64,000 nucleotides of DNA from Nereocystis luetkeana. Taxonomy: Eukaryota; Sar; Phaeophyceae; Laminariales; Laminariaceae. Of this stretch, positions 4,492 to 62,990 are shown one piece after another (position 1 is the first letter of the stretch; each line of letters opens with the position of its first letter). The notes beneath the pieces were generated by a model, which saw nothing but the letters and a program-made list of their open reading frames with translations, ran no database searches and was not told the DNA's origin. The stretch covers positions 9,971,562-10,035,561 of the forward strand of contig JARUPZ010000020.1 in assembly GCA_031213475.1 (NCBI GenBank), read 5' to 3'. Made by a program: the position numbers and the translations under genes.

Positions 4492-5514
4492 CTAATGAGT
4501 ATGGTTGTTCCCTATGGCCACGTACCGGGTCAAAAGACCAGGGAAAGCCAGTGAAATGCCAACGTACCGGGTGAGGAGACCCGAACGGGTGAAACAAGTG
4601 CAATTCCAGGGTATCGGGTACTTGGAGATCATAACAACCCGCTATGACTCTCGTGGTGTGCCCTCAGTTGTTTCAACATAGCTTTCATCTACCCCCGAAT
4701 GGTAACATGCCGTACACTGCACAGCTGAACGGCTTCCCAACAACATTACTTTGCTCCGGTAGTAGGGGACACTCATCCCGTACGTGTGTAGGGATGTGTG
4801 GGGCCAAAGTTAAACGTCTCCACGCTTGTGAAAGCAAGAGGAGCGATGGACCCAAGGATCTAGAGAGCTTTTGCCGTGCGACCTTCAGTCCCATGAACGG
4901 TTATATTGATAGTTATTAATAGTGGTATGAATACTGCTGTATATACTGTGGATACATCCTCCACGTATGATATGTGGCCTTCGACTAAAACTCGTCATTT
5001 CTACCCAGCTTCATCACCGTAGTATGCCCCGTATGAATCCCAGATACCTGGTACTCGTGTGCATACATACGGTGTGTGTGATACATCCTGATATATACCT
5101 GGTATGTCGCTTTTCAACGCGTTATCATGACTCGAAAAGATGGGAAGAGAGATGTACGAAATGGTCCCTAAGGATTTTGCCATACGGCCTACCAGGTACC
5201 AGGTACCTGGTACAGTTTTACGGGAGTGTGTAGTATTATATATAGCCCATAAACGCCCTTTATTGATGTTGTCAAAAGCATACATACTGCGAGCCACCCC
5301 CCCTGTATGCTTAACCGTGTATCAAGAGCTCACCCTGTTCGGGGTAGAAAAAATAAATAAAAAACTGCAGGTACAGAGTAGAGCAGTAGTAGTAGGAGTA
5401 TGGTTTCCTATTTTTTTTCCACAGTACATGTACTATCGTTAATATTCATATTCTTAGTCGTGTACGCACGGTAATGCAACTCGTCGTATAATATACCCTG
5501 GTATACCATCTTCT
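4492..5514. other. LARD interior with clustered TACCWGGTA motifs
   Basis: No gene was seen. The stretch holds five TACCTGGTA or TACCAGGTA units (5045, 5096 and a run of three sharing TA dinucleotides at 5190-5212), the densest cluster in the window. It also has short repeats of GTACCGGGT around 4520-4620. Confidence 0.4.
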
Positions 5515-5692
5515 CTGCTTCCCTGGTGTCCGCAGTGGTGGAGTGCGTATGCCTGTTTTTTGTTTTTTTTTGCCTCTGTTTTTACTTGAGGTATTTCTTC
5601 CACTCACTCCAGAGTTATTGGAGCCTGTCCTGCGACCACGGACTGCATTGAATTGTGAGTTAATGTGAGAACAACAACAACAACAACAACAA
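5515..5692 (+). mobile_element. Retroposon W, truncated copy with (AAC)n tail
   Basis: A non-coding element reads 5' to 3' on the plus strand and ends GTTAATGTGAGAAC followed by (AAC)n. Other copies lie at 28817-29117 (minus) and 42819-43329 (plus, interrupted). The simple-repeat tail and 5' truncation are typical of target-primed retroposons. It faces the tail of a retroposon Z copy about 45 bp away. Confidence 0.6.
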
Positions 5693-5737
5693 CTTCTCAT
5701 ATTTTTGAGCATCGTGTGAAACTGCGTACCAGGTAGT

Positions 5738-6692
5738 GTTGTTGTTGTTGTTGTTCTCTCATTAACTCTCTGACGAAGGAGTCCGTGGTCACACAAAGGT
5801 GCTGGAGCCCTAGGAAGATCCGAAAAACGAAAAAAATCGAAAATTTGGCTGCCTCAAAATACACGAGACGGAAAAAGCGCACACAAGATAAAACCAATGT
5901 GCAAAACTGAACTAACATGGCCGCGGGTATATCCTCTCAACTATAATATAGAAGAGTACCCCCGTTCCCACCACTAACCAACTCGTGGCTGCTGACTACA
6001 GCGGATGCTGTCTGAAGTGCCGCCTGCACCGTACGAAACGCACGGTAGTCGTGAAAACGAAAGAGGAACACACCTGCCTGCTATCTGGAGTGCTGTCAGA
6101 GTGAAGACTCGCGGATATGCAGTGAAAAAAGGAGCAATCGAACCTTACTGCCACACGAATATCAACGATCGCCATCTCTTCCTGGACTGTCTGACACAAA
6201 AAGGTGCAGCACAGTTATGATACCACGTCCCTGATAATTGCGTAGGTTATTCCCCATGAAGGGTGTACAACTCGTTAAACTACAAAAACCAGTGACGAGT
6301 ACCGGTAGATACTATTCTGCCTCGTGAAAAACAAAACCAGGAAAAAACAAACTATGACTGCTTCTCTCGTGATGATAGTATGCGCGCAAATCATGGGTCT
6401 CCATGCACCGTCTTCCTGCCGCTCTTCATGGCCGCATCATCGCCTTGGCCCAATCCACCCGCTCCTTTGCGCGTGCACTCGTTGCCATTCCCTTCCAGTC
6501 GTTTCCCTTTCTTCGTCATCCTGAAAAACAAAATGCTCCTCGCACTTGCGGTTCTGATCTGGGAAATAAAAATTCTCGCGCAGGGGGAGGTCAATCCGTC
6601 TCTTCCCCGCACGTCGACGCTCAGTCTCCCTCCTCCCTCGTCGTCGAATCCAGCCTCCTACCGGCGCAATAGACTGTGCCGTAGTGTGGAGT
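5738..6692 (-). mobile_element. Retroposon Z, long copy with (AAC)n tail
   Basis: This element of about 950 bp appears three times: here, at 49535-50497 (inverted) and at 62309-62990 (cut by a copia LTR). On its sense strand it ends GTTAATGTGAGAAC plus (AAC)n. An open frame near its 5' end (6437-6799 minus) is kept almost unchanged in the 49.4-49.8 kb copy, but it is Arg-rich and shows no domain. I do not call it a gene. It could be a non-autonomous LINE derivative. Confidence 0.65.
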
Positions 6693-7470
6693 GTGTATAG
6701 ACTACTGATGGAATTGTAGACGGGGATACGGCTTTTCTGTGTAATTTTCAAGTTGAGGCGCCTTTGCTCCAGGCAGCTATTACTCAGTGCTCGGGGCATG
6801 GTAGGTTATCGGTTCCTGCGTACAACTTCAAACTTAGAACCATCTACGGAAAGCGCTCCTCCCGCAACGATATTCAAAGGTACTCCCTGTTTCGATACCA
6901 GCAGCGAGGTATACTTCAACAAACAGCAGTTACATGTGACATGTGACCACGAAAATACTGCTGTCGCTCAGGTTGGGCTGATTATTAGAGTCGTACGCAT
7001 ACGTATTGCCATGGTAGTCTAAATGAATACAGCCGACACCCCCCATTTTTTTTCTCGAGGAGTACCGCACAGCAAGAAAAAAAACCGGCCGCACCAAAAA
7101 ACACAGACGAGATGTGCGGGGCCGAAAACAAAAACAATCGAGAGTGACGCCTGAGGCGGAGAACGGCCGCAAAAAAACGAGAGTTACACCTGAGGCGAAG
7201 GCCGGCCGCAAACAATCGTCAAGGCGTGCGCGGGAACAAAAAACAAATCGAGGGTCAGGACGGAGAGATTTGTGGCCTTCTTCTTTTTTTGGTGCTGCCT
7301 TATCGCGAGTATGCGATGATGGTGGCTACCTGCCGTGACTACTGTTTCCTGATACGTTATGCATGGTCACTGCTATAAACAGCAGTAGTGCTACCCGAAT
7401 ATATGTACTCTATCGTAGTTTCTATTAATACGTGTATCCCTCGCCGCTGGTACCCATCAGACTCCATCAT
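6693..7470. other. LARD interior, short imperfect repeats
   Basis: At 7110-7250 a unit of about 40 bp containing CGCCTGAGGCG and CGGCCGCAAA is repeated two to three times imperfectly. No gene was seen. Confidence 0.4.
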
Positions 7471-7690
7471 CCCGGACAGAACTCGGGGCTCGATACTTGG
7501 CCACCCATCATAATCCATCCCGGAAAAGCTCGGGCAGAGACACTGATCCCACCCAGGGAAAACTCGGGCCCCGATGTTTGGGCCTCATTCCGCCCAGGAG
7601 GACTCTCGGGCCCAGTTATTCGGGCCCTCGTTCCGCCCGGGAGAAAACTCGGGCCCATGTGCTCGGGGCCGAACAAATTCCCTGGGTACC
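7471..7690. repeat. CTCGGGCCC minisatellite inside the 5' LTR junction
   Basis: At least four imperfect units of 35-45 bp carry AAAACTCGGGCCC and a following CCGCCC segment (about 7480, 7550, 7600 and 7640). It lies just inside the right-hand LTR, in the position of the element's leader. Confidence 0.6.
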
Positions 7691-7769
7691 GATCTCTCGT
7701 GTCCCCGCCAGAGCTCATGACCTTGCGCTCCAATCTCCCCCTCTCTCTGTCATCGGCCTGGGTTCATCA

Positions 7770-8332
7770 TGTTACAGCTGCCTCCTCCTGTGTGCCGCTA
7801 TCGGCTCGGTCTCACCTCGATAGCCAGCTGTTGTCGTTCGTTGAGAGAGTCCTCATGGGGATTTCCTCCGTACCTCGCTCCTAAATCCTCTCAGGCCACG
7901 GGGTGGCCAGACGCCACGAGAGTTGAGTGTTGGTATTGCTCAGCGAATGCGACGTGATATTAACTGACATGCACGTTATGGGCAACTGACATGAACGTGG
8001 TGGGCAAGACTCATGCACGGTGTGTGAACAGGATATGGTTTGACTTGTTTCTTTCGTTCTTTGGTGGGATTGACTAACCCCAGGTAGGGCCAGAGAGCAC
8101 CCGCATCGACCATTACAGCCGATACGGGGTTTCCATGACCCAGACAATGGCCTCCCCCGCCGGGGACACTCCATTGTATACCTACATCGATATGACAGCG
8201 AGCCATCCTACGGCTTTATCGCTGCCTTACACGATGCACCCTCCGCGCGTCACTGGTCAGGTCAGTCAACGTACATCACAGAATACCCTGTCGCCCACCT
8301 GGGCGACTCCTGAAGCCCGTAGCGCTGCAACA
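7770..8332 (-). repeat. 5' LTR of the LARD-like element
   Basis: It is 563 bp and near-identical to 191-753, followed by the TTCG target duplication at 8333-8336. As the 5' LTR of a minus-strand element it would contain the promoter, but I cannot point to a specific TATA or start site. Confidence 0.8.
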
Positions 8333-8336
8333 TTCG

Positions 8337-8671
8337 TGCCAGAAACCGAGGTTACTCGTTAGATAACGAATCGCATCATTATGCACTACCAGGTATGTCT
8401 ACGAGTAGAATCATGCCATCAACCCCCCCCTCATGATTTCACTCAAAACAATGGTGACAAGACAACGTCAGTACCGATTTCTATTCATAGTTGGTCTTCC
8501 TCATATTCAAGTGGGTAATTGGCAACGCAGGTACGTCCGTTTTGCCATTACAACTCGCGGCCTGGGTAGACACAGCAGTATGGAATCAGGTATCAGACGT
8601 GGTACGGTTTCCTCATACCCTCTGGTTAATATACGGGCACGTATACAGCAGCTGCGGTGGAAATGCTTCAG
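8337..8671. other. Unassigned sequence
   Basis: There is no gene or repeat copy found elsewhere in the window. A TACCAGGTA lies at 8387 and a doubled one at 8684-8699 just beyond. Confidence 0.3.
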
Positions 8672-9523
8672 TCATAAAAGACATACCAGGTACCAGGTAC
8701 ACCACACCTTCCGCAATATTGCACACTTCATTTGAGAACATATCAGGCAAACACAAAGAAAGCACAGGAAAGGACAAACAAAAAAGATCCAGTCCACCAA
8801 AACTAAAAGTGGGCGACACTGGAAAAATATTACATGCCTGTTTCCCAGGGTCGAACGGGAAATCTCGCTTGCCGCTGCTGCTGCCGCTGCTAGTCCCCGC
8901 CCCCTCGTAATCCCCGTCTCCCCATCCGCCACCATACCCCCCCAAACCGAGTCAGATCCGTATTCCCAGCCACTCGGTGCCAGCCTCGCCCATATGAGTT
9001 TTCCCCGGTCGAAGGGGTACGTTGACCCCCCCTTCTGACCGGAGTTGCGCACGTCGGACACAGCAACACCAAGCTCCACCACCTCAGGCTCAGCATAACC
9101 AAGGCCCACCACCTCGGACACAGTAACACCAAGCTTCACCACCTCAGGCTCAGCGTAGCCAAGGCCCACCACCTCGGACACAGTAACACCAAGCTTCACG
9201 ACCTCAGGCTCAGCATCACCGAGCTCCGGCACTTCGGACACAGCAACACCAAGCTCCACCTCGGACACAGCAAGACCAAGCTCCACCACCGCAGGCACGG
9301 CAACACCAAGCTCCACCACCTCAGGCTTAGCATCACCGAGATCCACCACGTCGGACAAAGCAACACCAAGATCCACCTCGGACACAGAAATACCAAGCTC
9401 CACCACCTCGGACACGGCAACACCAAGCTCCACCTCGGGTTTAGCATCACCGAGCTCCACCATGTCGGACAAAGCAACACCAAGCTCCACCTCCTCAGGC
9501 TTAGCATCACCGAGATCCATCAC
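8672..9523 (-). repeat. Minisatellite encoding decapeptide repeats (open frame)
   Basis: From about 9540 down to 9045 the DNA is a 30/60-bp minisatellite. Its minus-strand frame is uninterrupted and encodes about 17 imperfect ten-residue units of the type E-V-V-E-L-G-V-A-V-S alternating with L-G-D-A-K-P-E-V. The frame runs on to 8672 through unrelated sequence with an Ala run and a hydrophobic end. Just upstream on the same strand lies a decayed Gag zinc knuckle, and the single unit PEVVDLGVA is read before the array in another frame. The array may therefore be an expansion inside a retrotransposon polyprotein. Whether any protein is made is unknown. Confidence 0.5.
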
Positions 9524-9559
9524 GTCGGAAAAAAAGCAACACCAAGGTCCACCACCTCA

Positions 9560-11490: not shown

Positions 11491-11579
11491 CAACTGCTGT
11501 TGCTCTATACGTATTGTATTCATATATAGTGGTATGGGAGTTGTGCACAAGCTTTGATAACATGTATATATATATATTG

Positions 11580-13345
11580 AAAAGCTGTCGGGCCAGATGG
11601 TCTCTGGGCCGAACTCCTGAAAATTGTCCTCCCGGCAGTCGCCCAGTGCTTTCACAACATCCTTGTCAACGTTTGGGTAACCGGAGAAGTCCTCCAGCAA
11701 TGGAAATATGCGATCATCAAGGTCCTTCACAAAAGGAAGGGCCGAACTGACTGCAACAACTACAGAGCGATTTCGCTTGTTGCCCACGCAGGCAAACTTT
11801 TGTTGAAAATCGTCGCGTCCCGCCTCAGCAACTACTGCAAGACAGAGGAATTACTCCCTGAGGAACAGGGCGGCTTCCGCCCCGCACGATCAACGATTGA
11901 TGTGTTGTTCGTCGTGTGCCGATTGCAAGAACTCGAACGACAGAGGAAAACCCCCCTGTACGTGTGCTTCATCGATCTGCAGAAAGCGTACGACTCTGTC
12001 GACCGAGAGCTGTTATGGAAGGTACTCACACGCTTTGGCGTACCAACCAAGATGCTGAGAATTATCCGTAATTTCCAGGATGGCATGCGGGTTCGCGTGC
12101 GTACTGATGACGGCGAGCACGCGGAATGGTTTGCTGTCACGCAGGGACTGCGGCAAGGCTGTGTACTATCACCGTTACTGTTCAACGTGTGCTTCGCTGC
12201 TGCGCTACACGTCGTACTATCAATAGTACGCTTCAGCCAAGACGAAGCCATTGTAAGGGATTTGGTCCAACTCAGTGATGCTGGAGTAGTTCGAACAGGA
12301 GCCGTTGGCGTGCGCGAAAAGGGCTGTATGGGGCATGTTGTACGCCGATGATGCAGGAATTGTCTCGAAGTCGGCTGAAGGGCTCGCGAAAATGATGACA
12401 GTCATCGTGACTGTCTTCGAAGCAGCAGGCCTCACGGTGTCGGAAAATAGGACAGAGATAATGGTCCTACAAACACCAGACCGGACAACCCTCGCACCAC
12501 CGCTCGTCACCGAAGCGGCAGGTCAGAGGTATAAGCAGACGACCCAGTTCTTATACCTAGGCGGCGTTATCCACGAAAACGCTGCGCTCTCGCTCGAAAT
12601 CGACCGACGGATCCGCCTCATGCGAGCATGCCTCAAACGGTTCGGCCCGGAGTTGTATGATAGGACGACCGCCCCCCTTCGCCTTAAAGCCCGAATGCTG
12701 AAGGCCGAGGTGATTGAGACCCTGCTGTACGGGTGTGTGACGTGGACCCTCAGAGCGGAACACTTTGCCAAGCTTCGAACGGCTCACCACCAAGTCCTGT
12801 TGCGAGTCATTGGCTTCCAGCGCCGACTTCATACTGACCATGGCACCCTCTCGTACGCAAAGGCCCTCAAGATGATACGTTGCGAGAGCATCGAAACGAC
12901 CATTCGTAAACGGCGGCTCTTCTTTGCGGGGGGCGTGGCACGGCAAAGCAAGGAGCGGTTACCCAGTCGGGTAATGTTCGGGACGATAGCTGGTGGGGAG
13001 AACCCGAGACCAGGCGGACAATGTAAGACTTGGCATAGAATCATAGTCGAAGACCTTAGGGAGTTCCGAGCCACGGAAGGGTCAACGGTAGTTGCCCCCT
13101 TGGTGTTTGGAGTTGAGACCACGTTGTGGCCTACTGCAGCCACAAAGGTGGAGAAGTGGTACCGGGGGGTAATCAAAGCAGCCGAACGGTTCATGGTGAG
13201 GTGGCACGAAGCTGAGATGAGTAGGCAGCGCCGCGCATCCGCCGTGGATGGTGTCCAAGGGAATGGGGGTGGAGGGGGCAACAGGAGAAGTGGCAGAAAG
13301 CCCTACCAAGGGAATGCGGAGAGGGGGGGGGGGCAGGAAGAGTAG
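11580..13345 (+). pseudogene. RTE LINE ORF, 5'-truncated and frameshifted
   Basis: The copy begins abruptly at the codons for KAVGPDG in the RT fingers and runs to the normal ORF end. RT motifs are visible: [29 protein letters not shown], then LYADD after a frameshift near 12300. Before the shift the frame ends at 12351; after it, 12305-13345 stays open. The endonuclease domain is missing. RTE elements normally encode an apurinic-type endonuclease followed by RT in one ORF, and this is the RT half only. There are several nonsynonymous changes relative to the other copies, so it is older. Confidence 0.85.
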
Positions 13346-13837: not shown

Positions 13838-14250
13838 CTGAGAATCGTGACCGGACGGGACGGGACAGATGTTTCTTGTTTGGCGGGGAAAAAAATGAGA
13901 ACGGGACGGTAAAATGAAGACATAAAAAGTTGGCGGGACGGAACGGGACGGGACGGCGGGTGCACAATTTCTCGACGGGACGGTAAAATTCAACGGGACA
14001 GAGTTTCACGGCGGGACGGGACGGTAATTATGTTTTCCTCCGGCGGGACGGGACGGTAATTGTTTTTTCCTCGGCGGGACGGGTCGGTAAATATTTTTTC
14101 CCTCGGCGGGACGGGACGGTAAAAATATTTCCCCTCGGCGGGACGGGACGGTAAATATGTTTCTCACGGCGGGACGGGACGGTAAATTTGTTTTCTTTCG
14201 ACGGGGCGGGACGGTATTTTTTTTCCCTTGGCTGAACGGGACGGTAGTTA
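13838..14250. repeat. GGCGGGACGGGACGGTAA minisatellite, copy 1
   Basis: About ten units of 30-40 bp each contain GGCGGGACGGGACGGTAA followed by a T-rich spacer. The same unit recurs at 28150-28540 and 29326-29522. Runs of GGG and GG on one strand give it G-quadruplex potential. Confidence 0.85.
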
Positions 14251-15341
14251 ACACTGGTATACCAGGTATATTTCTTTTTTCCTGCTGCAAGGTCGGCGCG
14301 GTTGTACGTGAAGACTTTCCCGCACTACTGATTGCGCGAAGGGAGCCGGCCTGACGCAGGCATTGTTCTTCTCGACCCGCGGGCCACAATCTCCGAGAAG
14401 TTCTACCACTACGCGGGCGACGTTTTTTTTCAATTTTTTTCTCACCCCTGCCCCAAGTACTCTTCTTGTTGCCGTGCCAGCTCATGGTGGCTGTTCTGAT
14501 GATTATTGTGCTTGCGCTGGGTTCCTGGTGGTTGTTGTGGAGGTAGGTGGAGATAGGTGGTGGAGGTGGTGGCGGCGGCGGTGATTCTAATGCCGCTCGC
14601 TGCTAATCGATCGACCCAGCCCGTGAGATAGGCATCCATGGCGTCCGTACCGGTCTTACCAAAGATGCTAGGAGACAGCATTTTTACATTCTTACCCAGG
14701 GGTGCACGCGGATCTGAATCCCAGATACCCCACTACCCCCCCCCCCTATATTGGAGGAGAAAAAAACATTTTTTTTTTTTTTTCCCGTGTTTTTTGTTTG
14801 TCTCGCGCCTGCTGACGCTGCTCTATGTATGTGTGTCTAGCGTCTACGAGTACTTCGTACTGCTTGGCTTTGGGTGTACACTGGTGTACACAATAGTTTG
14901 TACAAGGTTTGTATGATATGCACAAGAATGTGTTGATACTGTCGGGAGGGTCGGAGTTGGGGAACCGCCACCACGCTCGCCACACCAGCCACTCGTAACA
15001 AGATTGATAAAAAAACTGCGTTGTGAAATATACCGGCGTGCGAACCTGGGTGGAAGGTGCACGTGCCGACAGTCGCGCGTACTATTAATAGAATAACACC
15101 ACTGCCATCTTACACTACGGTGTCCACTACCCGGGTCTTCGAAAAAACAAAATCCGACACCACACCAGACTACCTCGATGTTGCTCCAAGATATACTACA
15201 GTAGTACAAAGCTTGCGTCAAGGTCAATTGAAGCTGTCGTACCGTGTGCCGGTGATAATCCCCTAGCACGACAGTATCCCACGATCGTGCACAATAACCC
15301 GAGCGAAACATACTAAAGACAAATCTACGTACGTACCCGAA
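14251..15341. other. Unassigned stretch with a weak minus ORF
   Basis: The minus frame 14442-14681 (79 codons) is Thr- and Pro-rich after a start that reads MLSPSIFGKTG. It has no recognisable domain and ends in a repetitive CCACC region. A (C)12 run and a (T)16 run lie at 14740-14790. Nothing else was recognised. It separates the minisatellite from the 3' end of the five-exon gene. Confidence 0.3.
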
Positions 15342-18589: not shown

Positions 18590-19479
18590 GCTTTTTCTTC
18601 CCCAGAGTGTTCAGCTACAAGCAGAAACGCTGGGTGGTGTTGTATTGTCTAGAAGGCCTTGCGTACCCTCGGGAATGCGGGGACGATTCAATCTCATCCC
18701 CTGCTATTGGTGTATATAGGTTTTAGTATGGATTCGGATTATATAGGAAATAGTATGGTACTGCGCTTTATGGGTGGTCTGATTTCGTTTATATAGGATT
18801 TAGTGTGGTGTGCACCCCCCTATACGCCGAAGGGTGCCTAAATAAAAAACTTGACACCCCCCCCCCTATATTTGGTTTCCCAAAAATAAATTTTGGAGTG
18901 TGGTGTCGTTTTTTTTTTTTTTGTGCACCCCTGTCTTTCCCCTTGACAGACAGCAAGTTTGCCTTGAGACAAATACATACCTGGTACATGTTTTGACTGA
19001 CACCAAACTACTAGGTTTAGTGTGGAACACTCGGCCCTACATCGTTGACAGCGCACGTTTTGCGTCTCGCTTCATGACAGGTCACCTGACATCTTTTTGG
19101 GCCACACCAGTGTATACTGGTGGTGTGGCCGTGAGTTGAATGGTCTCTGTTCCAGTCGTGTGTAGTGGCGAGCTTGCGGCTACTACTGCTGTGGCAGTAC
19201 TTACTTTCATTTCAACATACAAAAATAAAGTCCAGCCAGATACAGCAAAGCTATTAATAGTAATAGCTGCTGATCATCAACGCCAGCACCTTTTGTGCTA
19301 AAAAAATAACTAAAGGAGGTGCGGAGCAATTTCATACCTGGTATTTTCCAAGATGAAAGTGATGAATACGAATATACGTCTGTCTTCAGTCATCAGCTGT
19401 GAGTTCGCCCGGTTTTTGGTTCTATAGTATTGATATTAATAGTTGATACACTCAATTTTCAATTTTGCAAGCTGCGTAA
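18590..19479. other. Upstream region of the five-exon gene, no gene seen
   Basis: The region should contain the promoter of the minus-strand gene, but no TATA box or initiator can be singled out. It has three spaced copies of TATATAGG-N3-TAGTRTGG (18713, 18738, 18790), C and T homopolymer runs, and TACCTGGTA at 18978 and 19335. Confidence 0.35.
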
Positions 19480-22413: not shown

Positions 22414-23086
22414 CAGCGATACGCCTGTACAATTATTTACTACCCTGGTATGTTCTATACTTATTTCATTCATACATAGTGGTATATGGGAGTTGTGTAA
22501 ATTTATGATATCAGTACCTGGTCCCTGGTAGTTTTATACCTGGTAGGAATTATTGCTATTAAGACTAAATTTTAGTACAACTCGATTTTATTTTTTTATT
22601 AATTTCGTGATTTGTGGTGGGAATGGATGGGAACAGACCACCACGAATGAATGTATCTCGCAGGGGAAGAGGCACTTAGTACTTTGCTTTCGAAGTTGTA
22701 CTATATTAATGCGCAACCCCCCGCCCGGAGAAGGGGGCTGGAGGAGGGGTGATCCCCCGGGGCTGCCGCAACAGCAACCCCACGCTAACATCCGTATACT
22801 CGAGTCAACTCCCAACCCAACTGGCGGCATAGAACTCTCGACGCCAGCTTCCATCGACCCAAATGGGAGTCGACCCTATTTACGGATGTACTCTCACGGC
22901 CCCTTTCCCCCTGACTTGCAATATCATAGGGAACGCAAGTAATACCACACTTCGTCATAGTTTCACTTCTGCCTAGTCAAATCTAAGAGTGAGTTAACCC
23001 GCCCCAACTCTGTGCCCTGGCCCGGCTGAATCCCACCGCTAATTCCTTCATGGGCCATCACGTCGGCTACCCAACTGGCATCCTTT
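22414..23086. other. Flank of LINE and 3' side of the DIRS-like element
   Basis: No gene was seen. The part next to 23086 is presumably the 3' terminal region of the DIRS-like element, but I found no repeat shared with its 5' side. TACCTGGTA-type motifs lie at 22515 and 22537. Confidence 0.35.
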
Positions 23087-24130
23087 CTATGAATGACTGC
23101 GAACATACGTCTTGTACGCATCGGACGCCCATCGGCCCTCACGCTGCAACACCTCTGGTGTTGCCCCCCCCGCCGACAAGTGAGTTGCGCCTCCAATCCT
23201 CAGAAAGTGCAAAGCGTACTCCTCCGCACGCACGCCCGCCAACGCAACCACTTTTCGCAGAGCTGCCGTCGCTTGCTGCTGTGTCCACATGGGCCATCTG
23301 CCATTACCAACACCAAAAGCGGCAAGTGGGGCCGACGAGGGAAGAAACAAATAGCAAGACATCAATTCGATCATGAGATCGACAGCACCGCCACCGTCGC
23401 CCACGCGCAACGCCGGACCACAACGTACGCGCGTCAAAATCGCCCCTTTCCGCAGTTGGTCCCCTTTCGACCCACGAAACCTAACCTCAACGCGGTCTGC
23501 AGGAGACCACTGCGACGCGGTAAGCTGAATATTCTCGCGAAAAAACGCAACATCGGCCCGTCGCAAGCAATAAGTTTCGTGCACACGCGACCGAGTTTCC
23601 GCAAACATTTCTGACGCGCGAGTCAAAAAACAAAAGGAAGCGCAGAGGGCAAGCCACAAGACACGACCCCCCGTCTGCCATGTGGAGAACAAGTTTTCGC
23701 CCGCGATCAACATTTCCCACGAAACAGGCCGACGAACGGTTGCTTGGTTACCAGCGTCGGCATGCGAACGAGCGGCTCCTTTGAGGGCATTACCCAAAAC
23801 AGGATGGGTAGTGTCCAGTTCGAACCCTCGTGAAATTCGATGGAAAAACTTGATCGCTGACAAATGGCTCTCGATAGTTGCCGACCGCAATTTCTTAGTG
23901 GCAAAGGCGTACGCTACGTACTCGAACAAATGCCACACGTTAGTCATGCTGTCTCCGCCACGCTCTAGGAATACAGGCATGTCACAACGTACCCGAAAGT
24001 CTACCCATGCGCCAAAATGCCCCTGATAAGTGCGTTCAGACGAGGTCGCAATGGCGTTTCGCATGAGTTCGAGGCCAACACCGAAGTACAGAGGGATGTG
24101 CCCGCACCCCCCAGGTCCTGCTCCTGCCAC
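23087..24130 (-). CDS. Tyrosine recombinase of the DIRS-like element
   Basis: 347 codons ending in TAG, with no interruption. The family integrates the circular cDNA by site-specific strand exchange. The catalytic set is visible: Arg in C-F-L-T-R-A-S-E-M (about residue 170), H-F-L-R in the block H-F-L-R-I-G-G-A-T-H-L (about 308-318), and the nucleophile Tyr in the final segment G-R-W-A-S-D-A-Y-K-T-Y-V-R. The N-terminal 130 residues fit the SAM-like core-binding domain (T-Y-Q-G-H-F...W). The start overlaps the end of the RNase H frame by about 130 bp, as in other DIRS elements. It is the best preserved ORF of the element, and which of the two C-terminal Tyr residues is the nucleophile needs an alignment. 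Confidence 0.85.
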   Translation of the reverse strand: MAGAGPGGCGHIPLYFGVGLELMRNAIATSSERTYQGHFGAWVDFRVRCDMPVFLERGGDSMTNVWHLFEYVAYAFATKKLRSATIESHLSAIKFFHRISRGFELDTTHPVLGNALKGAARSHADAGNQATVRRPVSWEMLIAGENLFSTWQTGGRVLWLALCASFCFLTRASEMFAETRSRVHETYCLRRADVAFFRENIQLTASQWSPADRVEVRFRGSKGDQLRKGAILTRVRCGPALRVGDGGGAVDLMIELMSCYLFLPSSAPLAAFGVGNGRWPMWTQQQATAALRKVVALAGVRAEEYALHFLRIGGATHLSAGGATPEVLQREGRWASDAYKTYVRSHS

Positions 24131-26341
24131 GGAATGTCGGGTCGAGCAGGACGCAAATTAACGAGGACGGAGGCACAATCCCACCGTGAGATACCATCAG
24201 CGGCCACGTTAAAAATTCCACGTACGTGTTTTGCGTCAAAGTGCCAACCAGAGGACAACTCGAGCACCCCGAGGAGACGCATTAATGCGCCAGATCTCGG
24301 CTCCTTTCCCCCTCGACAACGCCGCACCTACTCGACGGCTGCTTCGTTGTCGCCACGGAACAACACACAGTCCCCCATGGCGAACGGAACTCGATCCACA
24401 AAATCGAGACCGCTCTCCTGCGTCAAGCTCGTATCTCCAATACACCCCAGTTTCCAAGCAAAAACCCCCGACAGCGGTTTTAGATGCGTCCGAAAAAGGA
24501 GTACGTCTAGGGGGGCGCTCAAGCAAATTATACATCGGAGCCGACAAGGTTCCTCCGCGCGCGTCCCACCCTTCCTCAACGAACCACCGCCAGAACTCGA
24601 GGTCACCATGGAACTCGGGTCCCAGGGCGAGACGCCGCCCGGGGTTTGCCATACGGCAATCAAAATTAGCTCCGGCGGCAATGCGCGGCATACCAACTGA
24701 AGCTAACAAGCGGTTAACGAAAAAACGCCCCGGACGTACAGCAAAGGAAACATGCGTGAGAAAGCCAACGAGCTGCGACACCTGCTTCGCAGAAGCAGAT
24801 GCACGAGACGAGGGCCACTCCTTGAGGATATTGTGCAGCTTGAGGCGCTTATGGGGCGGCAACGTGACCGTAAGCGCCTCAGTATCAATGATCCATCCCA
24901 AAACTTCCCGTTGCGTGTCCCAATTAGTAATTTTCTTGCCTGACAGGAGGGGCGGATCGGAAACACCACGTTCGCCCAACAAGCGAAAGTGGTCCGACGC
25001 CAGTGACTGTACAGCACGCAAGCAACGGCGGCCGTCCGGCCACCATTGCAACGCGACAAGAATGCCATCGTCCACGTAGTACCTCACAAAACAACTGCTC
25101 CCGGTGTTGCCCCCTGAACCAGGAACGGGCCCACAATCACGCGGGATAGCAACGACCCGAACTCCCCGCGGCGGGGAGAGTTCAACGTGCGCAACGGCGG
25201 CAGCCCCTTGTTGGGAAACGTCTGCGCCTTGAAAGGTAGAGTGGGTATGAGCATGCTCGAGCGCAGATGCCATTAACCCCCAAAACCCAGGACTATTGCG
25301 CCAACCAAACTGCAAGCGCAAATCCACGACAACGTGATCACCGAAAACGTATCCAAAATTCGGCGCGCCTGCCGGATCAACCAAAACCTGCCGAAAAGCG
25401 TCTTTGACATCCACACGGCACAACAGGATTCGAGCGCGACTACCATGCGTCTGTCGCAAAAACAGCACCCGTAACAGCACATCACGAAGCACATGGCCGA
25501 GCTCACACGATGGTGCGGAGTTAAAGTCAGTGTCACCATTAACGCTGGTCCGACCGCCCTCGCGCGCAAACGTAAGATCGTGAATAATCCTTAATTGGGG
25601 TTCGAGAACGACACTCAGCGGTGAAAGGCGAAGACCCTGAATCTCGTCTGCATGTCGCAAATCAAACACCACCGCTCGGCCGTGCACCACGTCTGCGCAT
25701 ATCTTATTGTGGATATCCCCCGCATGCGTGGCGACGACCGGGTGATTACCATACGCGAGTTCTGTGGTCAAATCCCCCCCCCGTGCGACGCCGACAGGCG
25801 CGCCCGGCGCCAGCACACGAAGCAACAGAGAAATACGAGGGAATTTCTTGATCTCACCAAACCAGTGCTGTACGACAGCAACGTTAATATGCGGAGAGAA
25901 AATTGAGGAGCCGATGGTGGACAGAAAAAGGTGAACACTGCCTTGACACTGTCGCAAGAGTGAGGAGCTGAGTGACGCGACCTGATCGAGGCTCGCTGAG
26001 CCTCGCGCGGACACCGCTTGCACCACTACCTCCCGAGCGGCAAGCCACGCATCTACCTCATCTACTCGCAACGCATCCAGACGCACGTCGCCGACCTCAC
26101 CTTGTACGTACGCCGTGTCAACTGGCAAATATCTCGCACGCACGCCCATACCCGTATCTTTCTCTGAGAAGGGAACCGAACCCGGAGTCACAGCGACGCT
26201 ATCACGCCCGACGCCGACATCGCCAGCCAGAGCTCCTAACGCACGCCTACGCAACCCCCCCGCTCCTTCGCGGGTGGCCGGCCGAGTGCCCGTTCCACAA
26301 CTGGCGACGTGCGCCGTCGCCGCTCCGCCACCGGCCCGCAC
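24001..26341 (-). pseudogene. RT-RNase H polyprotein of the DIRS-like element
   Basis: The frame is open from 26392 to 24236. RT motifs: C-R-V-D-V-K-D-A-F-R-Q-V (motif A), R-L-Q-F-G-W-R-N-S-P-G-F-W-G (motif B) and Y-V-D-D-G-I-L (motif C). The connection and RNase H follow, starting F-S-D-A-S-K-T-A-V-G-G-F near 24440. About 60 bp later the correct RNase H continues in another frame (R-G-D-N-E-A-A-V), so there is a 1-nt indel near 24400. In that frame a TAG at 24328-24330 precedes the last block H-V-R-G-I-F-N-V-A-A-D-G-I-S-R. Gag and RT share one frame separated by a single TGA. Confidence 0.85.
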
Positions 26342-26392
26342 CGCCGCCGCCCCCCCAGGTGTTGGCCCAACCGACAGGAAGGGCCCGTGTCT

Positions 26393-27913
26393 TCATCCCG
26401 AACCCGAGCCACCACCACCCCCGGCCCCCCCGCGACCACCATCTGGGCGGAGCACCAGAGCCCGCATCCCGCTAGCTTGCGCCGCCGCTCCACCTCGCGT
26501 TCCCCCAGCTGGAGACGCCGATCCGCCGCCGAGAAGAGCTGCAGGAGAGGAAGAGTTGGCCGGGGTATTCGCATGCACGAATTTGCAGTCTGAATACCGG
26601 CATAGGCCCGTGGAAGCGAACATCCTGCACAGCGCGGCGCTCTTCTTTCTGGCCGGACCCGTCTTGGCAGGGGCGAGGCTTTGGCCCCGCTTGGGTGCCC
26701 CATCCCTGCTGTCGCGTAGAACTTGGAGACCTTCCACGAGCTTCAGGACGTCGCCACCGGACGAGCAAAAGTTGCGTGTACGACCAAACGCTGGGACAGG
26801 CGGCGCGTTAAACACGGCGTTGAACTGAGGGGGAACAATCAACGGACGAACTTGCTGGGCAAACCTCATGAGGTCGTTCACCCACAGGCGCAGGTCGTCG
26901 TTCACCATGTCGCTCATAACAGCCCGCGACGCGGAGCCGGAAAGCAAAATTATGTTGCTTAGAGTATGCCGGCGAAGACCGGCCGCCGCGGATGTGAACG
27001 AGACGTCGACGGGTGCCAGCCGGTCCAGGCACGCGCGGTCGTCGGCGACGTCAGCTGAGAGTCCAACTGTAATAACCGCCATAAGAGCCTGGCGCAAAAG
27101 GTCCAGGCGGTCAGCGACAAACACCAGGTGGTCGACAGGGCGGTCGGCACGTGGCCCATACATGCTCACGTCAAAGTTGCTGACAGCGCGAAGCTGAGCC
27201 GCCACCCCCGCCGTAACGTCGACGCTCTCACCCACGAATGACTGAATATCTGCGGCCGACTCGCCGAGGTTCGGAGGCAAGCGTCCCCGAAGCAGCCAGT
27301 GTTTGCGTGACGACATTTTTTTCCAAAGGGCCGTGTCGTCAGTCAACTGTGATTTCTGGACGTGCCGCTCCCTCGCATCCCCGCCGTCTCGCACGGAAGG
27401 CTCACGGTCGGCAAAGTTGTCCACAAACTGCTGAATCAGGACCTCGACGTCGGCTGTCTTGGATGCGCCGCCGGCGACGGCGTCCCAAAGGCTCGCAACA
27501 GACAGGAGCACGTTGTCCAGAGATGACTTGACGCCGAGGATCTCCGTATCCATGCGGGAAAACTCGGAGGACACCTGGTTTTGCCAATGCCGCACGTCAG
27601 CTGTCGATACCACACCCCCCGAGGCTGCCGGCATAGATGGAGGACTAGCCGTAGCAGCAGGAGTAGCAGCCGCAGCAGCAGTAGCAGCAGCATCGTTGGC
27701 CTGGCGAGAGGCCACAGCAGCGTCGGTGGCCTGGCGAGCCTCGGCTTCGGCTCGTCCAGCACGGCGTGCGTCGACCTCCGCTTGCACAGCAGCTACAGAA
27801 GCATGAGCATTCGCCTCGGCTTGTGTTTGCGCAGCAAACAACGCAACCTGCACACCTCGCGCCGCAGTAGCCGCGTTGGCACCGGCCTCCGGCGACTTGC
27901 TCTCGTCGGACAT
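26393..27913 (-). CDS. Gag-like protein with CCCH finger, DIRS-like element
   Basis: 506 codons starting ATG (MSDESKS). The N-terminal third is Ala-rich with a long heptad-like, coiled-coil tendency (residues about 20-110). The middle is a mixed helical domain without a family match I can name. Near residue 425 there is C-x8-C-x4-C-x3-H (C-R-M-F...L-C...D-C-K-F-V-H), a CCCH-type finger that probably serves nucleic-acid packaging in place of a CCHC knuckle. A Gly-rich tail ends at TGA; the same frame then stays open into RT. Position upstream of RT-RH-YR identifies it as Gag by context. Confidence 0.7.
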   Translation of the reverse strand: MSDESKSPEAGANAATAARGVQVALFAAQTQAEANAHASVAAVQAEVDARRAGRAEAEARQATDAAVASRQANDAAATAAAAATPAATASPPSMPAASGGVVSTADVRHWQNQVSSEFSRMDTEILGVKSSLDNVLLSVASLWDAVAGGASKTADVEVLIQQFVDNFADREPSVRDGGDARERHVQKSQLTDDTALWKKMSSRKHWLLRGRLPPNLGESAADIQSFVGESVDVTAGVAAQLRAVSNFDVSMYGPRADRPVDHLVFVADRLDLLRQALMAVITVGLSADVADDRACLDRLAPVDVSFTSAAAGLRRHTLSNIILLSGSASRAVMSDMVNDDLRLWVNDLMRFAQQVRPLIVPPQFNAVFNAPPVPAFGRTRNFCSSGGDVLKLVEGLQVLRDSRDGAPKRGQSLAPAKTGPARKKSAALCRMFASTGLCRYSDCKFVHANTPANSSSPAALLGGGSASPAGGTRGGAAAQASGMRALVLRPDGGRGGAGGGGGSGSG

Positions 27914-28149
27914 CCCGAACTCAAACTAGTCTGTATCACACCTTGAACCTGTAGCGTTGCCTCTGCTTCACTGCGCTGTTGCGTGTAGGCTGCGGCTACG
28001 TACCAGACAAGGTGTATGCACCAAGGGCTACGATTCATGCTACCGTGAAACATCGCATTCATCTGATTGGCTAAACTTCTTACGTACGTACAAAACTCAC
28101 ATTCTCTCACTCTTCCGAGAATACTCTGCGTTATGTCCGCCGGAGACCA
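27914..28149. other. 5' flank of the DIRS-like element
   Basis: No ORF of note. It should include the leader of the DIRS-like element. I could not match it to the 3' side as inverted or split direct repeats. Confidence 0.3.
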
Positions 28150-28540
28150 TAATTCGCGGGAGAGATTTTATCGGCGAGACGGGACGGTAACTTTTCATTG
28201 TCAGGGCGGGACGGGACGGTAATTGTTCGGTGTCCCGGCGGGACGGGACGGCAATTGTCCGGTGTCACGGCGAGACGGGACGGCAATTGTTCGGTGTCAC
28301 GGCGGGACGGGACGGTAATTGTTCGATGTCACGGCGGGACGGGACGGTAATTTTCAACGGGAGAGATTTTATCGGCGGGACGGGACGGTAATTTTTAAGG
28401 GGAGAGATTTTATCGGCGGGACGGGACGATATGTGACGACGGCCCGGGAATTTGTCGGTGGGACGGGACGGCGGGACCATTTTGACGGCGGTTTTACCGT
28501 CCCGTCCCGTCCCGCCGTTACCGTCCCGCCGAAATACCGT
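28150..28540. repeat. GGCGGGACGGGACGGTAA minisatellite, copy 2
   Basis: At least eight units of 30-39 bp are followed by an inverted segment (TTTTACCGTCCCGTCCC) and the ending CCGAAATACCGTGATAAG. The right edge abuts LINE 3' UTR at the same UTR point where copy 1 interrupts another LINE. Confidence 0.85.
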
Positions 28541-28544
28541 GATA

Positions 28545-29325
28545 AGCCTTGGTTTTTTTCCATTACTTATTTTTTTCCTTGGTTCTTTGTCTTACCCTGT
28601 GTACAAGCAATGGTGTTTTTGGTATTTTTTCTTTTTTTCCAGCTTTTTCTTTTTCGAGTGTTGGCCACCTCGCCTGCGGGGGGGGCACGACAGTTTTTTT
28701 CTTCTATTTTGTGGTTTTATTTTTCTCTTCCGATTTGTCTACTTTTTTTTTGTTTTCTCTTCGATTGTTTCCTTTCGTTTATCTATTTCATAGAATGTGT
28801 ATGTCGTGCCTGTCGTATGTTGTTGTTGTTGCTGTTCTCACATTAACTCACAATTCAATGCAGTCCGTGGTCGAAGGACAGGCTCCAATAACTCTGGAGT
28901 GGAAGAAATACCTCAAGTAAAAACAGAGGCAAAAACAAAAAACGAGCATACGCACTCCACCACTGCGGACACCAGGGAAGCAAAGAGGAGACTATTAATA
29001 GCAGACAAAAACCTAAAAAAGAAGATGAAGCTAAGCAAAAAAAAACAGAACAAAACAAAAACAGACGCAGATATATAGCAAAACGCAAAAAATAAAAAAA
29101 TAAAAAAATAAAAAAATCTAGTATGATGGCACGGCATTGCATTGCCCACTGCAGTGCTTACTGCATACCAGGTACTTGGTACGTGGCTACGTAGTATCTC
29201 TGTGGCGTAGCGTTGTGACCTCATAACTTGTATCTCTTCTAGGATTGAAGAATCGGCACGGACGCTGATTGTGCTGGACATGTATGTCGACGGGTAGAAA
29301 GGACGAAGGATACACACGAACACAC
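28545..29325 (+). repeat. RTE LINE 3' UTR, split by retroposon W
   Basis: 28545-28816 and 29118-29325 are consecutive parts of the LINE 3' UTR (from CTTGGTTCTTTGTC to the (AC)-rich end). They are separated by a 300-bp W element. At 29166-29181 the motif TACCAGGTACTTGGTA sits where other copies have only two bases. Confidence 0.8.
28817..29117 (-). mobile_element. Retroposon W, 300-bp copy
   Basis: The plus strand begins with GTTGTTGTTG, the complement of the (AAC)n tail, and the element ends at an A-rich 5' side. It is inserted in the LINE 3' UTR between GTCGTA and TCTAGTATG. No clear target duplication was found. There is no ORF beyond 90 codons with any recognisable motif. Confidence 0.65.
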
Positions 29326-29522
29326 GGCGGGACGGGACGGTAATTTTTCGATGTCACGGCGGGACGGGACGGTAATTTCCAACGGGAGAGATTTTATCGA
29401 CGGGACGGGACGGTAGGTGACGACGGTCAGGAATTTCTGGGCTGGACGGGACGGGACGGGACGGCGGAACCATTTTGACGGCGGTTTTACCGTCCCGTCC
29501 CGCTGTTACCGCCGTTACCGTC
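29326..29522. repeat. GGCGGGACGGGACGGTAA minisatellite, copy 3
   Basis: Three to four units, then the inverted TTTTACCGTCCCGTCCC segment. The array is cut at GTTACCGTC by the copia insertion and resumes at 38186 (CCGTCCCACCGAAAT). Confidence 0.8.
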
Positions 29523-36151: not shown

Positions 36152-37952
36152 CGTATAGGCTTAATCTTCTAAGACGAGCGAAGCGAGCCGTAAGTCGGAC
36201 TGGGAATTCGAGCGCAGCGAGGTATTAAGACGGCCGCAGGGCGATTTTTTTTTAACTAAGTCGCGCGAATTTCAATCGTCTTAACCCTTTTAGGACCCCA
36301 GTCCCGTTTTGGGGACAAACTACTTACAATTAGAGCGTTTTGTCCCCACATATAGGAGTGCGGTTCTAAAAGGGTTAATCCATATTTTGCGTCTTAGCGC
36401 GTCTTGGACTCGTCTTAGCGCGTCTAAGCGCATCTTAGACTCGTCTTAGCGCGCCTTAGACACGTCTAGGCACGTCTTAGGTTCGTCTATAGGCACGTCT
36501 AAGCTCTTGGCAGTACTATTAATAAAGCAAGAATTATGTCGAAAACTAACAGTTAGCTACTTCAACGAGCCACGGGTACAGCAACATACAGCAACCACAC
36601 AACAACGTAGAGCGCCAGTAAATACGGCAATAATCCAAGTATCAAGCTACCGGTACCTGACAAGTGCGATTATTACGTGTAATGATGGACGAACAGCATT
36701 ATCACGTACCTGGTACTCCTACGTGGTAGTTCCTTGTTTGTTGGCATTTGACGTCACGCACAGCAGTACATAATTGATACCAGGTAGTACCTGGTATATT
36801 TGAATATCTATAGGAGGTATGTGTGTCTTTGTACATTAATTCGTACATACGTGCCCATATTCGAAGTGAAAGCTCCGAAATCGCATTGCTAATAGAAGGC
36901 ACCAGGTACCTGGTTATATTGCGTCGTTTGTTTTCCACGAGGACGAATATCATACCGTCAGCAGCCAGCCGTGGATACCAACAAACTCAGATATATTTTT
37001 TCACGTATTAATAGTGTTAATACGAAGTAGTATTATTAATATTAATAGCAGCCTACCAAGCCACCAACGGAAAACAGAGAGTCTCAAGAGATAACTGCAG
37101 TATTTAGTATTTATTTGTCCTAAACGATGTTGTTCAAAGAACGACACGTTGCTACCGATTGTAGTGATGCATCCGCGGTGTGAGCATACCAACGGATTTT
37201 GCGCAAATTATAACAATAGTAACTGCCCTGCCCACGGAACACAGAAAGAGAGCAGTTGTTGTCCTATCTATGTTGGGCGTCCCTAATAAGGCATTACAAT
37301 ATGTCACCTACCGGTATATAGTATTATACCGATGTACCACGGTTAACGTAGGAACAAAAATAGCAAAAAAGAACGAGAAAACGAACAGCAGTATAGACTA
37401 TAGTCGCCCTAAAGCATGCAACTTTTGTTTTGCAACATATATTACGACGTTGAGAATCAACACAACTTGAAACAAAACAGACGTAGCAGTAATCCTAAGG
37501 TATCAATATTAATAGTAGTATGTCGAAGAAATTGGAGTGGACCTTCACCATCACACCCATCTGCCAAGTGGCGAGAGAGGATAGATATCGTGTTTTATTT
37601 TTCGTTTTTTTGAAGATAATAATGCCATCCTCGAAAATACGGAGAACCGGGTTCGATGTCCCCGGTGACAGGAAAAAGCGCACGGAGGCCCGAGAAAAGA
37701 AGGTTCGAAAGAAGCACGTTGGAGTAGTCGATTAGTTTGTCGTCCCCGCTTTGTTTCCACCCATTTCCACAGCTCGCTGTGGTCGTGTCGACCCCCTAAG
37801 ACGCCTCGACCGGCGCCTGGTGCATTCTAAGACGAATCTAAACGTGCCAAGACGAATCTAAGACGTGCCAAGACGTGATATAGCGAGTAAGACGGGCCTC
37901 TCTCTGAGAAACGTATTTTAAGACACGTCTTAGAAGATTGGGCCTCGAGATG
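36152..37952. mobile_element. 1.8-kb non-autonomous TIR element in the copia LTR
   Basis: Its ends are inverted: GGCTTAATCTTCTAAGACG at left and, in reverse, GGCCCAATCTTCTAAGACG at right. It is flanked by CGTAGATG at 36144-36151 and 37953-37960; the intact 5' LTR has this octamer once. Subterminal GTCTTAGCGC-type repeats are clustered at both ends (36385-36500 and 37795-37930). No ORF encodes a transposase. An 8-bp duplication is usual for hAT and a few other superfamilies, but the first bases do not fit the hAT consensus well, so the superfamily is left open. Confidence 0.8.
36285..36374. mobile_element. TTAA-flanked MITE (piggyBac-like), copy 2
   Basis: 90 bp with TTAA on both sides (36281-36284 and 36375-36378). 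The ends read CCCTTTTAGGACCCCAGTC and, in reverse, CCCTTTTAGAACCGCACTC. It contains GGGGACAAAC and its inverted partner internally. It is nested in the TIR element, which is nested in the copia LTR. Confidence 0.8.
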
Positions 37953-48524: not shown

Positions 48525-49126
48525 GGGATTTACCAGGTACCAGGTACAGGTTCGTTCTCGTTCCTTTGCGTTCCTATCTACCTTTTTCTTCAGGTATTCG
48601 CAACTCAGAACCGGGCCACATATCGTTGGAGGCTCTTCTCCCTCTTCCCCATTAAATACTCTAACAGGCGATCTCGGCACGCTCTCGGCAGGAGTAACTG
48701 GTGTACATGAGGAGACGCGTACCCCCGACATCGGCACAACAAAAACTGAATAGCTATCTTCGAGGTTAACCGGGGGCGACCGCATCCCATACGTCTCAAC
48801 TGGTACGTAAGTAGTGTAACTGGTGGGCAGATATTCGTGTAAAAATTGGGGACCTCGCCGACGTGAGCAAAAAAAAAGAGAGGTCGCGTGTTCCAGACGG
48901 AGAAAGGCACAAGGATTGGGGACAGCAGCAAGAAGGACTCAACCGTTGGGTGGGCTAGATCTGGCGGGACTCTCGGGACCGCTGTGGGTCTGGCAAGAAA
49001 GTGACCGGTAAGTCGGGCGAGGAGGGTAGCGTGGAGCTTAAGGAGGGGTTACCCTGGACCGTGACTACTGTTCAGAGGACGACGGGCTAACGTATACCAG
49101 GGTAGACAGCAGTCAATACATGGTAC

Positions 49127-49129
<3 letters not shown>
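48525..49129. other. Unassigned segment with a minus-strand open stretch
   Basis: About 48544-48855 on the minus strand reads continuously (P-V-E-T-Y-G...V-N-L-E-D-S-Y-S-V-F-V-V-P...) with non-repetitive composition. It could be an exon or a decayed retrotransposon piece. No motif allows assignment. Confidence 0.3.
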
Positions 49130-49157
<28 letters not shown>

Positions 49158-58391: not shown

Positions 58392-58565
58392 CCCACGCGG
58401 TCCTTAAACCGAGCAGGCCACCAGCCGGACCGCGCAAGGTTCCCTACCTACGTAGTCCGAAGCTCGATGTTCGTGTGACTGTCGCTAGACCGCTGCAGGT
58501 CCTGGCAGACTTTCTCGGCCCACCCGAAGGACGGGGCAGGCCGAAGCAGGCAGAGTCAATGTGCA

Positions 58566-61440: not shown

Positions 61441-61837
61441 TCGGTTGCGCTGTTGCGCTGGCGCAACATTTTGGTCAAAATGGGCGTTTTTCTGAGCCTC
61501 TTCTTCGGATTCGCCACAGCCTTTTTTTTAAGCCCTTTTTCCATAGTAGAACAAAAGAAGTTTAGGTTCTGATCCCGCTACACGCCTTTTCGAGGTGAGG
61601 GAGGCGTTTAAACGCACTTTGTTACTTGGCATGTGGGCATATATTCGCGCATACAGCAGTGTTTTGCTGCGCGCAACAGACACCGGACCACTAATTATGC
61701 TAATACTTGACGAAACTAGACCAAAATTTAGCATAAACCCCCTTTTTATTTTATTTTTATTTGCCTTCTGACAATATGCAGGGCGTTCTTAATTCAAAAT
61801 GAAAACCCCTTCATGATTTTTTTCTTCTTTTTTTCTT
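61441..61837. other. Unassigned sequence
   Basis: No gene was seen. A short GCGCTG/GGCGCAAC inverted pair lies at 61447-61470. It lies between a truncated LINE and a SINE tail. Confidence 0.3.
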
Positions 61838-62176
61838 TTTGCTCATCCTATTCATTATCTTCGCACATCTTCTCTCTCTCTCCTTCCAACTCGTAACTCA
61901 GATCCGGGGTCACATAGCAGGCTCTTCTTCCCCCTTCCCGCTACGGTACGTGCCTTCATTTTTATCGCGAGAAGATTTCAGCCTTTTCTTCACTCGTCGG
62001 CTCGCATCGAATTGTGCCTACCCACGCTGCAAGGCGCTCTCAACAATTGAATCCTTTTTATTTTATTTTTTTGCAAATAAAGTCAAAAGTCCGACCCACC
62101 TGGGGCTCGAACCCAGGAAGGACTCAAACACAAGCAAGTAGAATTCGAGGTTAACCACTTGAAACACCGGGGCGAC
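61838..62176 (-). mobile_element. tRNA-derived SINE, near-complete copy
   Basis: The reverse strand carries the tRNA-like head (GTCGCCCCGGTG, T-arm CTGGGTTCGAGCCCCAG), the AT-rich linker, the body and an A-rich tail at 61815-61845. It is contiguous where the 42.7-kb copy is split. Confidence 0.8.
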
Positions 62177-62308
62177 CTGTTTTTTTCCAATATACTGCAT
62201 AAATTCGTACCTATGGGAGGGTCTTCCCACACCGTACTGCTTGCTCTGTAGCCGTATTGTCTCTCCACCCCTCGCTGTGCAACTACTACTGTTGTAGTTA
62301 CACTTACA

Positions 62309-62990
62309 TTGTTGTTGTTGTTGTTCTCACATTAACTCTCTGACGAAGGAGTCCGTGGTCACACAAAAGGTGCTGGAGCCCTAGGAAGATCCGAAAAACG
62401 AAAAAAAACGAAAATTCGGCTGCCTCAAAATACACGAGACGAAGAAAGCACACACAAGATAAAACCAATGTGCAAACTGAACTAACATGGCCGCGGGTAT
62501 ATCCTCTCAACTATAACATACCTGGTAGAAGAGTACCCCCGTTCCCACCACTAACCAACTAGTGGCTGCTGACTACAGCGGATGCTGTCTGAAGTGCTGC
62601 CTGCACCGTACGAAACGCACGGTAGTCGTGACAACGAAAGAGGAACACATCTGCCTGCTATCTGGAGTGCTGTCAGAGTGAAGACTCGCGGATATGCAGT
62701 GAAAAAAGGAGCAATCGAACCTTACTACCACACGAATGTCAACGATCGCCATCTCTTCCTGGACTGTCTGACACAAAAAGGTGCAGCACAGTTATGATAC
62801 CACGTCCCTGATAATTGCGTAGGTTATGAAGGGTATACAACTCGTTAAACTACAACGACCAGTGACGACGTTTATAACAAGTACCGGTAGATACTATTCT
62901 GCCTCGTGAAAAACAATACCTCCAGGAAAAAACAAACTATGACTGCTTCTCTCGTGATGATAGTGTGCGCGCAGATCATGGGTCTCCATG
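62309..62990 (-). mobile_element. Retroposon Z, cut by a copia LTR
   Basis: It matches 5738-6415 in the same orientation, with (GTT)n first. It stops at GGGTCTCCATG where the LTR of the second copia element begins. It has an extra CCTGGTA (62521-62527) relative to the two other Z copies. Confidence 0.8.

Follow-up and report, generated by a model that had tools for sequence, protein, structure and literature searches.

A genome-wide TA-bounded word, TACCWGGTA, in the kelp Nereocystis luetkeana: probable excision footprints of TA-targeting transposons

The 64,000-nucleotide stretch of the Nereocystis luetkeana genome analysed here (contig JARUPZ010000020.1, forward strand, C20:9971562-10035561; hereafter the window) carries copies of a long interspersed nuclear element (LINE) and other repeats, among which a nine-base word, TACCWGGTA, recurs. 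We label this word F1 (TA-CCWGG-TA) and a second one F2 (TA-TTAA-TA); L-numbers denote other stretches fetched from the same genome of 465,085,209 bases. The initial annotation had put the number of exact F1 units in the window at about 20 and their excess at about 40-fold. Exactly 20 were counted, including all the places it had named, and the excess was larger, ~54-77-fold over chance. Its series of units sharing a TA, three at 5190-5212 and two each at 8684 and 48531, were recovered as described, and the six-base variants it had placed near 5495, 22440 and 49096 lie at 5494, 22441 and 49095. TACCWGGTA is its own reverse complement except for the centre base, A and T centres being the two strands of one class, so that strand is uninformative. 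The sites in the window are as follows.

5045..5053, unstranded, F1 unit TACCTGGTA, exact match
5096..5104, unstranded, F1 unit TACCTGGTA, exact match
5190..5212, unstranded, F1 array of three units with common TA, exact match
5494..5503, unstranded, F1 six-base variant TACCCTGGTA
5727..5735, unstranded, F1 unit, exact match
8387..8395, unstranded, F1 unit, exact match
8684..8699, unstranded, F1 double unit, exact match
14260..14268, unstranded, F1 unit, exact match
18978..18986, unstranded, F1 unit, exact match
19335..19343, unstranded, F1 unit, exact match
22441..22450, unstranded, F1 six-base variant TACCCTGGTA
22515..22530, unstranded, probable decayed F1 double unit with one A to C change
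22537..22545, unstranded, F1 unit, exact match
29166..29181, unstranded, two F1-type units, CCAGG then CTTGG, 14 bp extra against aligned copies of the LINE end region
36707..36715, unstranded, F1 unit, exact match
36778..36786, unstranded, F1 unit, exact match
36788..36796, unstranded, F1 unit, exact match
36900..36915, unstranded, probable decayed F1 double unit with an outer T to C and an A to T change
48531..48546, unstranded, F1 double unit where a LINE copy is truncated at its 5' end, exact match and alignment
49095..49104, unstranded, F1 six-base variant TACCAGGGTA
62519..62527, unstranded, F1 unit, longer by exactly 7 bp at TA than copies 5739+ and 50488-

By chance, the window would hold a mean of 0.26 F1 units in 100 dinucleotide-preserving shuffles and of 0.37 in 60 order-2 Markov simulations, with a largest count of 2 in both. 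The CCAGG/CCTGG class was the top TA-N5-TA word with 20 occurrences, the runner-up having 9. The span 5045-62527 is a mere sample of a genome-wide feature: the genome-wide count that the initial annotation had proposed lay far above its control, with 182,395 occurrences of TACCWGGTA and 1,744 of the reversed word, and double units sharing a TA numbered 15,917 against 2 for the reversed control. At ~390 per Mb, F1 would rank among the most over-represented short words of this 465-Mb genome. Composition was followed in a 274-kb sample made up of the window and 21 stretches of 10 kb; the density counts omit L022-L025, as these were fetched for the motif. The sample held 77 F1 units against 2.9 expected under an order-2 Markov model fitted to it. 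Of their 69 arrays, 62 were single units, six double and one triple. Head-to-tail arrays are not the main form of F1, as they would be in a satellite or microsatellite. The centre base was W in 77 cases (A 34, T 43) and S in 3, the chance value for S being 2.7. The six-base variants TACCCTGGTA/TACCAGGGTA occurred 9 times against 0.83 expected. At the base adjoining the TA, A was favoured (46% vs 25% background, p 8e-5) and T avoided (4% vs 19%).

Paralog comparison showed how the word arises. The initial annotation had described a gain of CCTGGTA in the repeat copy 62309-62990, and this copy is indeed longer by exactly 7 bases at a TA (62519): it reads ACATACCTGGTAGAAG where copies 5739+ and 50488- read AATATAGAAG, and four paralogs have TA at this site, with no other form. 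The insertion it had also noted in the LINE end region at 29166 was borne out as an extra TACCAGGTACTTGG (14 bp, two units) missing in the other aligned copies, but the two bases it had seen in those copies do not fully describe them: most of them have CACG where the 29166 copy has TACG, leaving the empty site one substitution off TA. The paralog set comprised the window and fetched stretches, with 111 F1 arrays; paralog counts take in L022-L025, and the 111-array count also L026-L031 and L032-L035, the last four picked near listed double-unit places and not at random. An alignable paralog spanned 28 of the 111 arrays, and in 9 of these 28 at least one paralog was exactly TA; L004:1556 and L005:5533 belong to one duplicated segment, which brings the nine to 8 loci. 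In three further cases, L019:831, L023:1501 and window 29166, empty sites with a neighbouring change were read by hand among those otherwise classed as "other". In L034, a single repeat copy carries two F1 insertions separated by 20 bp, and two L004 relatives have TA at both places. At L019:898, 12 paralogs have TA and 4 other forms. The possibility raised at the outset that the motif is ancestral and was lost did not hold up: paralogs show TA-empty sites and, since most copies are empty at several loci (window 62519, L019:8865, L019:898), gain is the simpler reading. A survey of indels in alignments with ≥70 columns and ≥78% identity, with insertions of 4-60 bp, gave 242 distinct indels, of which 34 were TA-bounded (some of them simple repeats) and 28 AA-bounded. 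The precise 7-bp insertion of F1 at TA leaves a residue flanked by TA on either side, as in footprints of Tc1/mariner/pogo elements. The empty sites are TA and the residue stays, unlike the 3-bp TWA or TTAA duplication with precise excision of PIF/Harbinger or piggyBac.

F2 follows the same grammar with another insert. TATTAATA occurred 27 times in the 274 kb against 1.35 expected, also forms series with a common TA, and has variants TCAA and TTGA; 12 places lie in the window, between 4904 and 37514.

4904..4921, unstranded, F2 units TATTGATA and TATTAATA with two bases between
7423..7430, unstranded, F2 unit TATTAATA, one paralog TA
12218..12225, unstranded, F2 variant TATCAATA, a 6-bp gain at TA within an open frame of a LINE
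15083..15090, unstranded, F2 unit
19252..19259, unstranded, F2 unit
19428..19441, unstranded, F2 tandem TATTGATATTAATA
28993..29000, unstranded, F2 unit
36517..36524, unstranded, F2 unit
37006..37013, unstranded, F2 unit
37034..37047, unstranded, F2 double unit
37501..37514, unstranded, F2 tandem TATCAATATTAATA

A paralog spanned 14 of 41 F2 sites, and 6 of the 14 were TA-empty; L026 and L028 being copies of one repeat, these six represent 5 loci. At 12218, 6 bp were gained at TA relative to five paralog alignments with TA, a sixth alignment having another form. The base adjoining the TA of F2, variants included, was C in 50% vs 25% background (p 1e-5). That the two words share a grammar but differ in insert and in target preference points to two elements of the same kind.

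In our view, F1 and F2 are probably the footprints left when TA-targeting cut-and-paste transposons of two families, presumably Tc1/mariner/pogo-like, were excised. Such an element would insert at TA and duplicate it. Upon excision, the transposase would make staggered cuts within the element ends, leaving at the donor site TA and 5 (F1) or 4 (F2) terminal nucleotides as overhangs. The overhangs of F1 would be self-complementary, with CC-GG pairs at four of five positions and a central A:A or T:T mismatch, repair of which would yield an A or a T centre in equal number (TACCAGGTA / TACCTGGTA); the F2 overhang TTAA, a full palindrome without mismatch, would give a single form. Annealed overhangs would be joined mostly in the same way, resulting in a uniform scar, and the six-base F1 forms look like imprecise repairs. 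Either TA of an older footprint could be reused by a new insertion, which would generate series with a common TA. If different elements were excised, one would expect the centre to be limited to A or T, six-base variants to occur and a second family to differ in insert and flank preference. A near-palindromic residue, as expected of annealed ends, is found in both families. The footprint reading, proposed already in the initial annotation, is the best fit, albeit unproven, to the grammar of TA bounds, near-palindrome, A/T-only centre and stacked units. What is surprising is the scale, the uniform length of 5 bp and the missing element.

To our knowledge, excision scars have mostly been studied site by site. 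The literature searched, as far as titles and excerpts tell, contained no genome-wide footprint word of this kind, and among the papers listed for the 9-mer word none was relevant by title. The comparisons that follow draw on excerpts of the papers cited. The footprint of Sleeping Beauty, a Tc1/mariner element, is printed as TAG(T/A)CTA (PMC2874221) and resembles F1 in its TA on both sides, palindromic arms and A/T centre; unlike F1, with 5 bp between the TAs, it has 3 bp, and its source element is known. For mPing, mismatched middle bases in the annealed overhangs were reported to alter repair (PMC4561436). Stowaway and Osmar5, mariner-like elements of grasses, leave short end fragments between two TAs, and Stowaway has been reported to insert anew into the TA of an earlier footprint; these fragments, however, are 1-4 bp long with several forms per site, whereas F1 has one dominant 5-bp form in huge number (PMC1925063). 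The brown alga Ectocarpus has 17 families of Mariner-Tc1 DNA transposons with almost 12,000 copies; the words "footprint" and "excision" do not occur in the main text of that paper (PMC12477816). Elements of the piggyBac type share the letters TTAA with F2, but they are said to leave no footprint (PMC2874221), and the empty sites of F2 consist of TA instead of TTAA, in most cases preceded by C.

Several observations weigh against the footprint reading. In 14 of the 28 spanned F1 arrays, the paralogs carried the motif too, with none exactly TA, or showed mixed forms (several of these 14 are copies of one repeat), one array was substituted and four fell into other classes; the two L034 insertions, at 1255 and 1275, have a single exact-TA alignment each, the remaining alignments being other short segments. 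Series of F1 exceed ~6-fold the frequency expected if TAs were re-used at random (8.8% vs 1.4%), and neighbouring units agree in their centre base in 40 of 59 pairs (p 0.009; 23 AA, 17 TT, 14 AT, 5 TA), hand-read from the 59 forward places listed out of 15,917 doubles, two of which overlap neighbours. Part of the F1 series may therefore be simple duplication. The 5-bp residue of F1 lies outside the 2-4 bp quoted for Tc1/mariner footprints in an excerpt of PMC7913693, while that of F2 has 4 bp; for Passer, 0-4 bp are given (PMC9976928). The sequence searched yielded no intact element ending in CCWGG or TTAA. The Tc1/mariner-like element with CCAGG or CCTGG ends that the initial annotation had suggested looking for did not turn up when paired inverted ends were sought in ~286 kb and shared half-site extensions in ~344 kb, and a search for terminal inverted repeats returned no TA-flanked element starting with CCWGG, neither in the window nor in the window plus L001-L025. 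Half-sites lacking the second TA were near chance (50 vs 47.8 and 49 vs 37.7), and an excess of ~20 one-mismatch forms at outer positions covers the ~13 extra half-sites. Intact ends can thus make up at most a small fraction of the footprints, and elements would be scarce compared with scars. As to a transposase, Pfam DDE_3 had no match among 30 candidates; Transposase_1 had none either, but its control was silent as well, which makes this result uninformative. DDE_1, which we take to include the pogo and Tigger transposases, had 28 matches genome-wide, 15 of them devoid of internal stops and none linked to F1. The sole DDE_1 gene inspected (L036) has an open frame of 352 residues, with no inverted ends in 2.8 kb.

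Some candidates for an element end were discarded. TACCAGGTACTACAGCAGTA (TACCWGGTACTACAGCAGTA; 95 matches) appears to be an inherited part of a repeat, 7 of 8 aligned copies being alike on both sides, and sequence was likewise alike on both sides of CCTGGGGTGTATGTACG. A 53-bp perfect palindrome, L008:388-440, was dropped as a mini-element because its sister copies suggest a local inverted duplication; the surrounding repeat contains F1 and TACAGCAGTA. In L030, by contrast, the stretch shared with the TACCAGGTACTACAGCAGTA copies sets in precisely at TACCAGG (L030:1501), preceded by unrelated sequence, and this could be an element end. Separately, a TA-flanked mini-element of ~103-109 bp, resembling a miniature inverted-repeat transposable element, has near-perfect inverted ends TACGGGGGACCATAGTTAATAGG.

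L011:8207-8315, L012:9319-9427, L014:4459-4561 and L018:1406-1514, copies of this mini-element

The missing element leaves room for an unlikely, though not negligible, explanation that dispenses with it: an enzyme, for example a domesticated DDE_1 transposase, or the repair of breaks at TA would add CCWGGTA directly, and the units would also multiply in series. Such micro-insertion, akin to the "very small inserted unit" of the initial annotation, would account for the lack of any filled element, the near-chance half-sites, the excess of series and the shared centres of neighbours, and DDE_1 domains with open frames are present in the genome. The W-only centre, the six-base variants and the flank preference of the second family match excision instead, and we know of no enzyme that adds such a 7-bp unit directly. 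A shade more doubtful is a self-sustaining system that wrote a 7-bp unit, (TA)CCWGG, into TA ~180,000 times and has no surviving parent element; one example would be a domesticated transposase that cuts at TA, with the same palindromic insert filling each break.

The distribution of F1 bears on another rival, in which TACCWGGTA would be a protein-binding motif, regulatory or chromatin-related, kept and multiplied by selection, with clusters as regulatory modules. F1 arrays do cluster, 29% of gaps being below 200 bp compared with 5% for Poisson scatter, and just 2 of the 20 window copies lie in long open frames (20 hand-picked from 43), which cover 43% of the window. The near-palindrome would suit a binding site as well. 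Exact 7-bp insertion into LINE and other repeats would, however, be an unusual origin for binding sites, and neither series with a common TA nor a second, unrelated insert under the same grammar would be expected. Decay towards one-mismatch forms also speaks against selection: their excess is 0.35 of the exact F1 excess, from which, by 8d/(1-d) and assuming neutral decay, we estimate a divergence of roughly 4% per base. This rival is therefore improbable; clustering and scarcity in open frames, with composition uncontrolled, agree with F1 either entering open non-coding DNA or being removed from genes. Spread of F1 inside larger repeat copies or as a 7-bp tandem repeat is most improbable, for although some copies were inherited, as with TACCWGGTACTACAGCAGTA, and series exist, 38 of the 69 arrays in the 274 kb pass a flank-similarity filter for independent flanks, single units are the rule (62 against 7 longer arrays) and empty paralogs disfavour it.

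If the footprint reading is true, past transposition could be counted from scars alone, even after loss of the element. It also suggests a rule by which self-complementary end overhangs lead to uniform scars, and excision may then cost the host little.

Several other words were considered as possible inserts and rejected. TACAGCAGTA is enriched (24 vs 0.83 expected in the 274 kb), yet 0 of 9 spanned sites show insertion; together with TACTGCTGTA it is found at window 4932 and 23 other places, and the forms with CTGCAG (0) and CAGCTG (1) are not enriched. TA-CGAAG-TA looked inserted at one locus in two duplicated copies, but 0 of 4 spanned sites were TA-empty. TA-CGAG-TA looked inserted at L020:587, and 3 of 18 spanned sites had a two-letter gap, but 0 of 24 spanned sites were TA-empty in the larger paralog set. 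Five of the six window copies of TACTAGTA share one long context, that of LINE copies. In viral contig records, which may omit those of this genome, there were 0 matches for the triple F1 unit and none for the LINE protein.

Two LINE ends adjoin a TACCAGG unit, at 48531-48546 and 49124-49157; the LINE 5' truncation lies at 48534, and a poly(T) run starts at 49131, after GGTACCAGG. At 23087-27925, large open frames follow one another on the minus strand; two of them have no Pfam match, and the run presumably resembles a DIRS/Ngaro retrotransposon. Tandem repeats built on CGGCGGGACGGGACGGTAA extend over 13944-14246 and 28151-29508.

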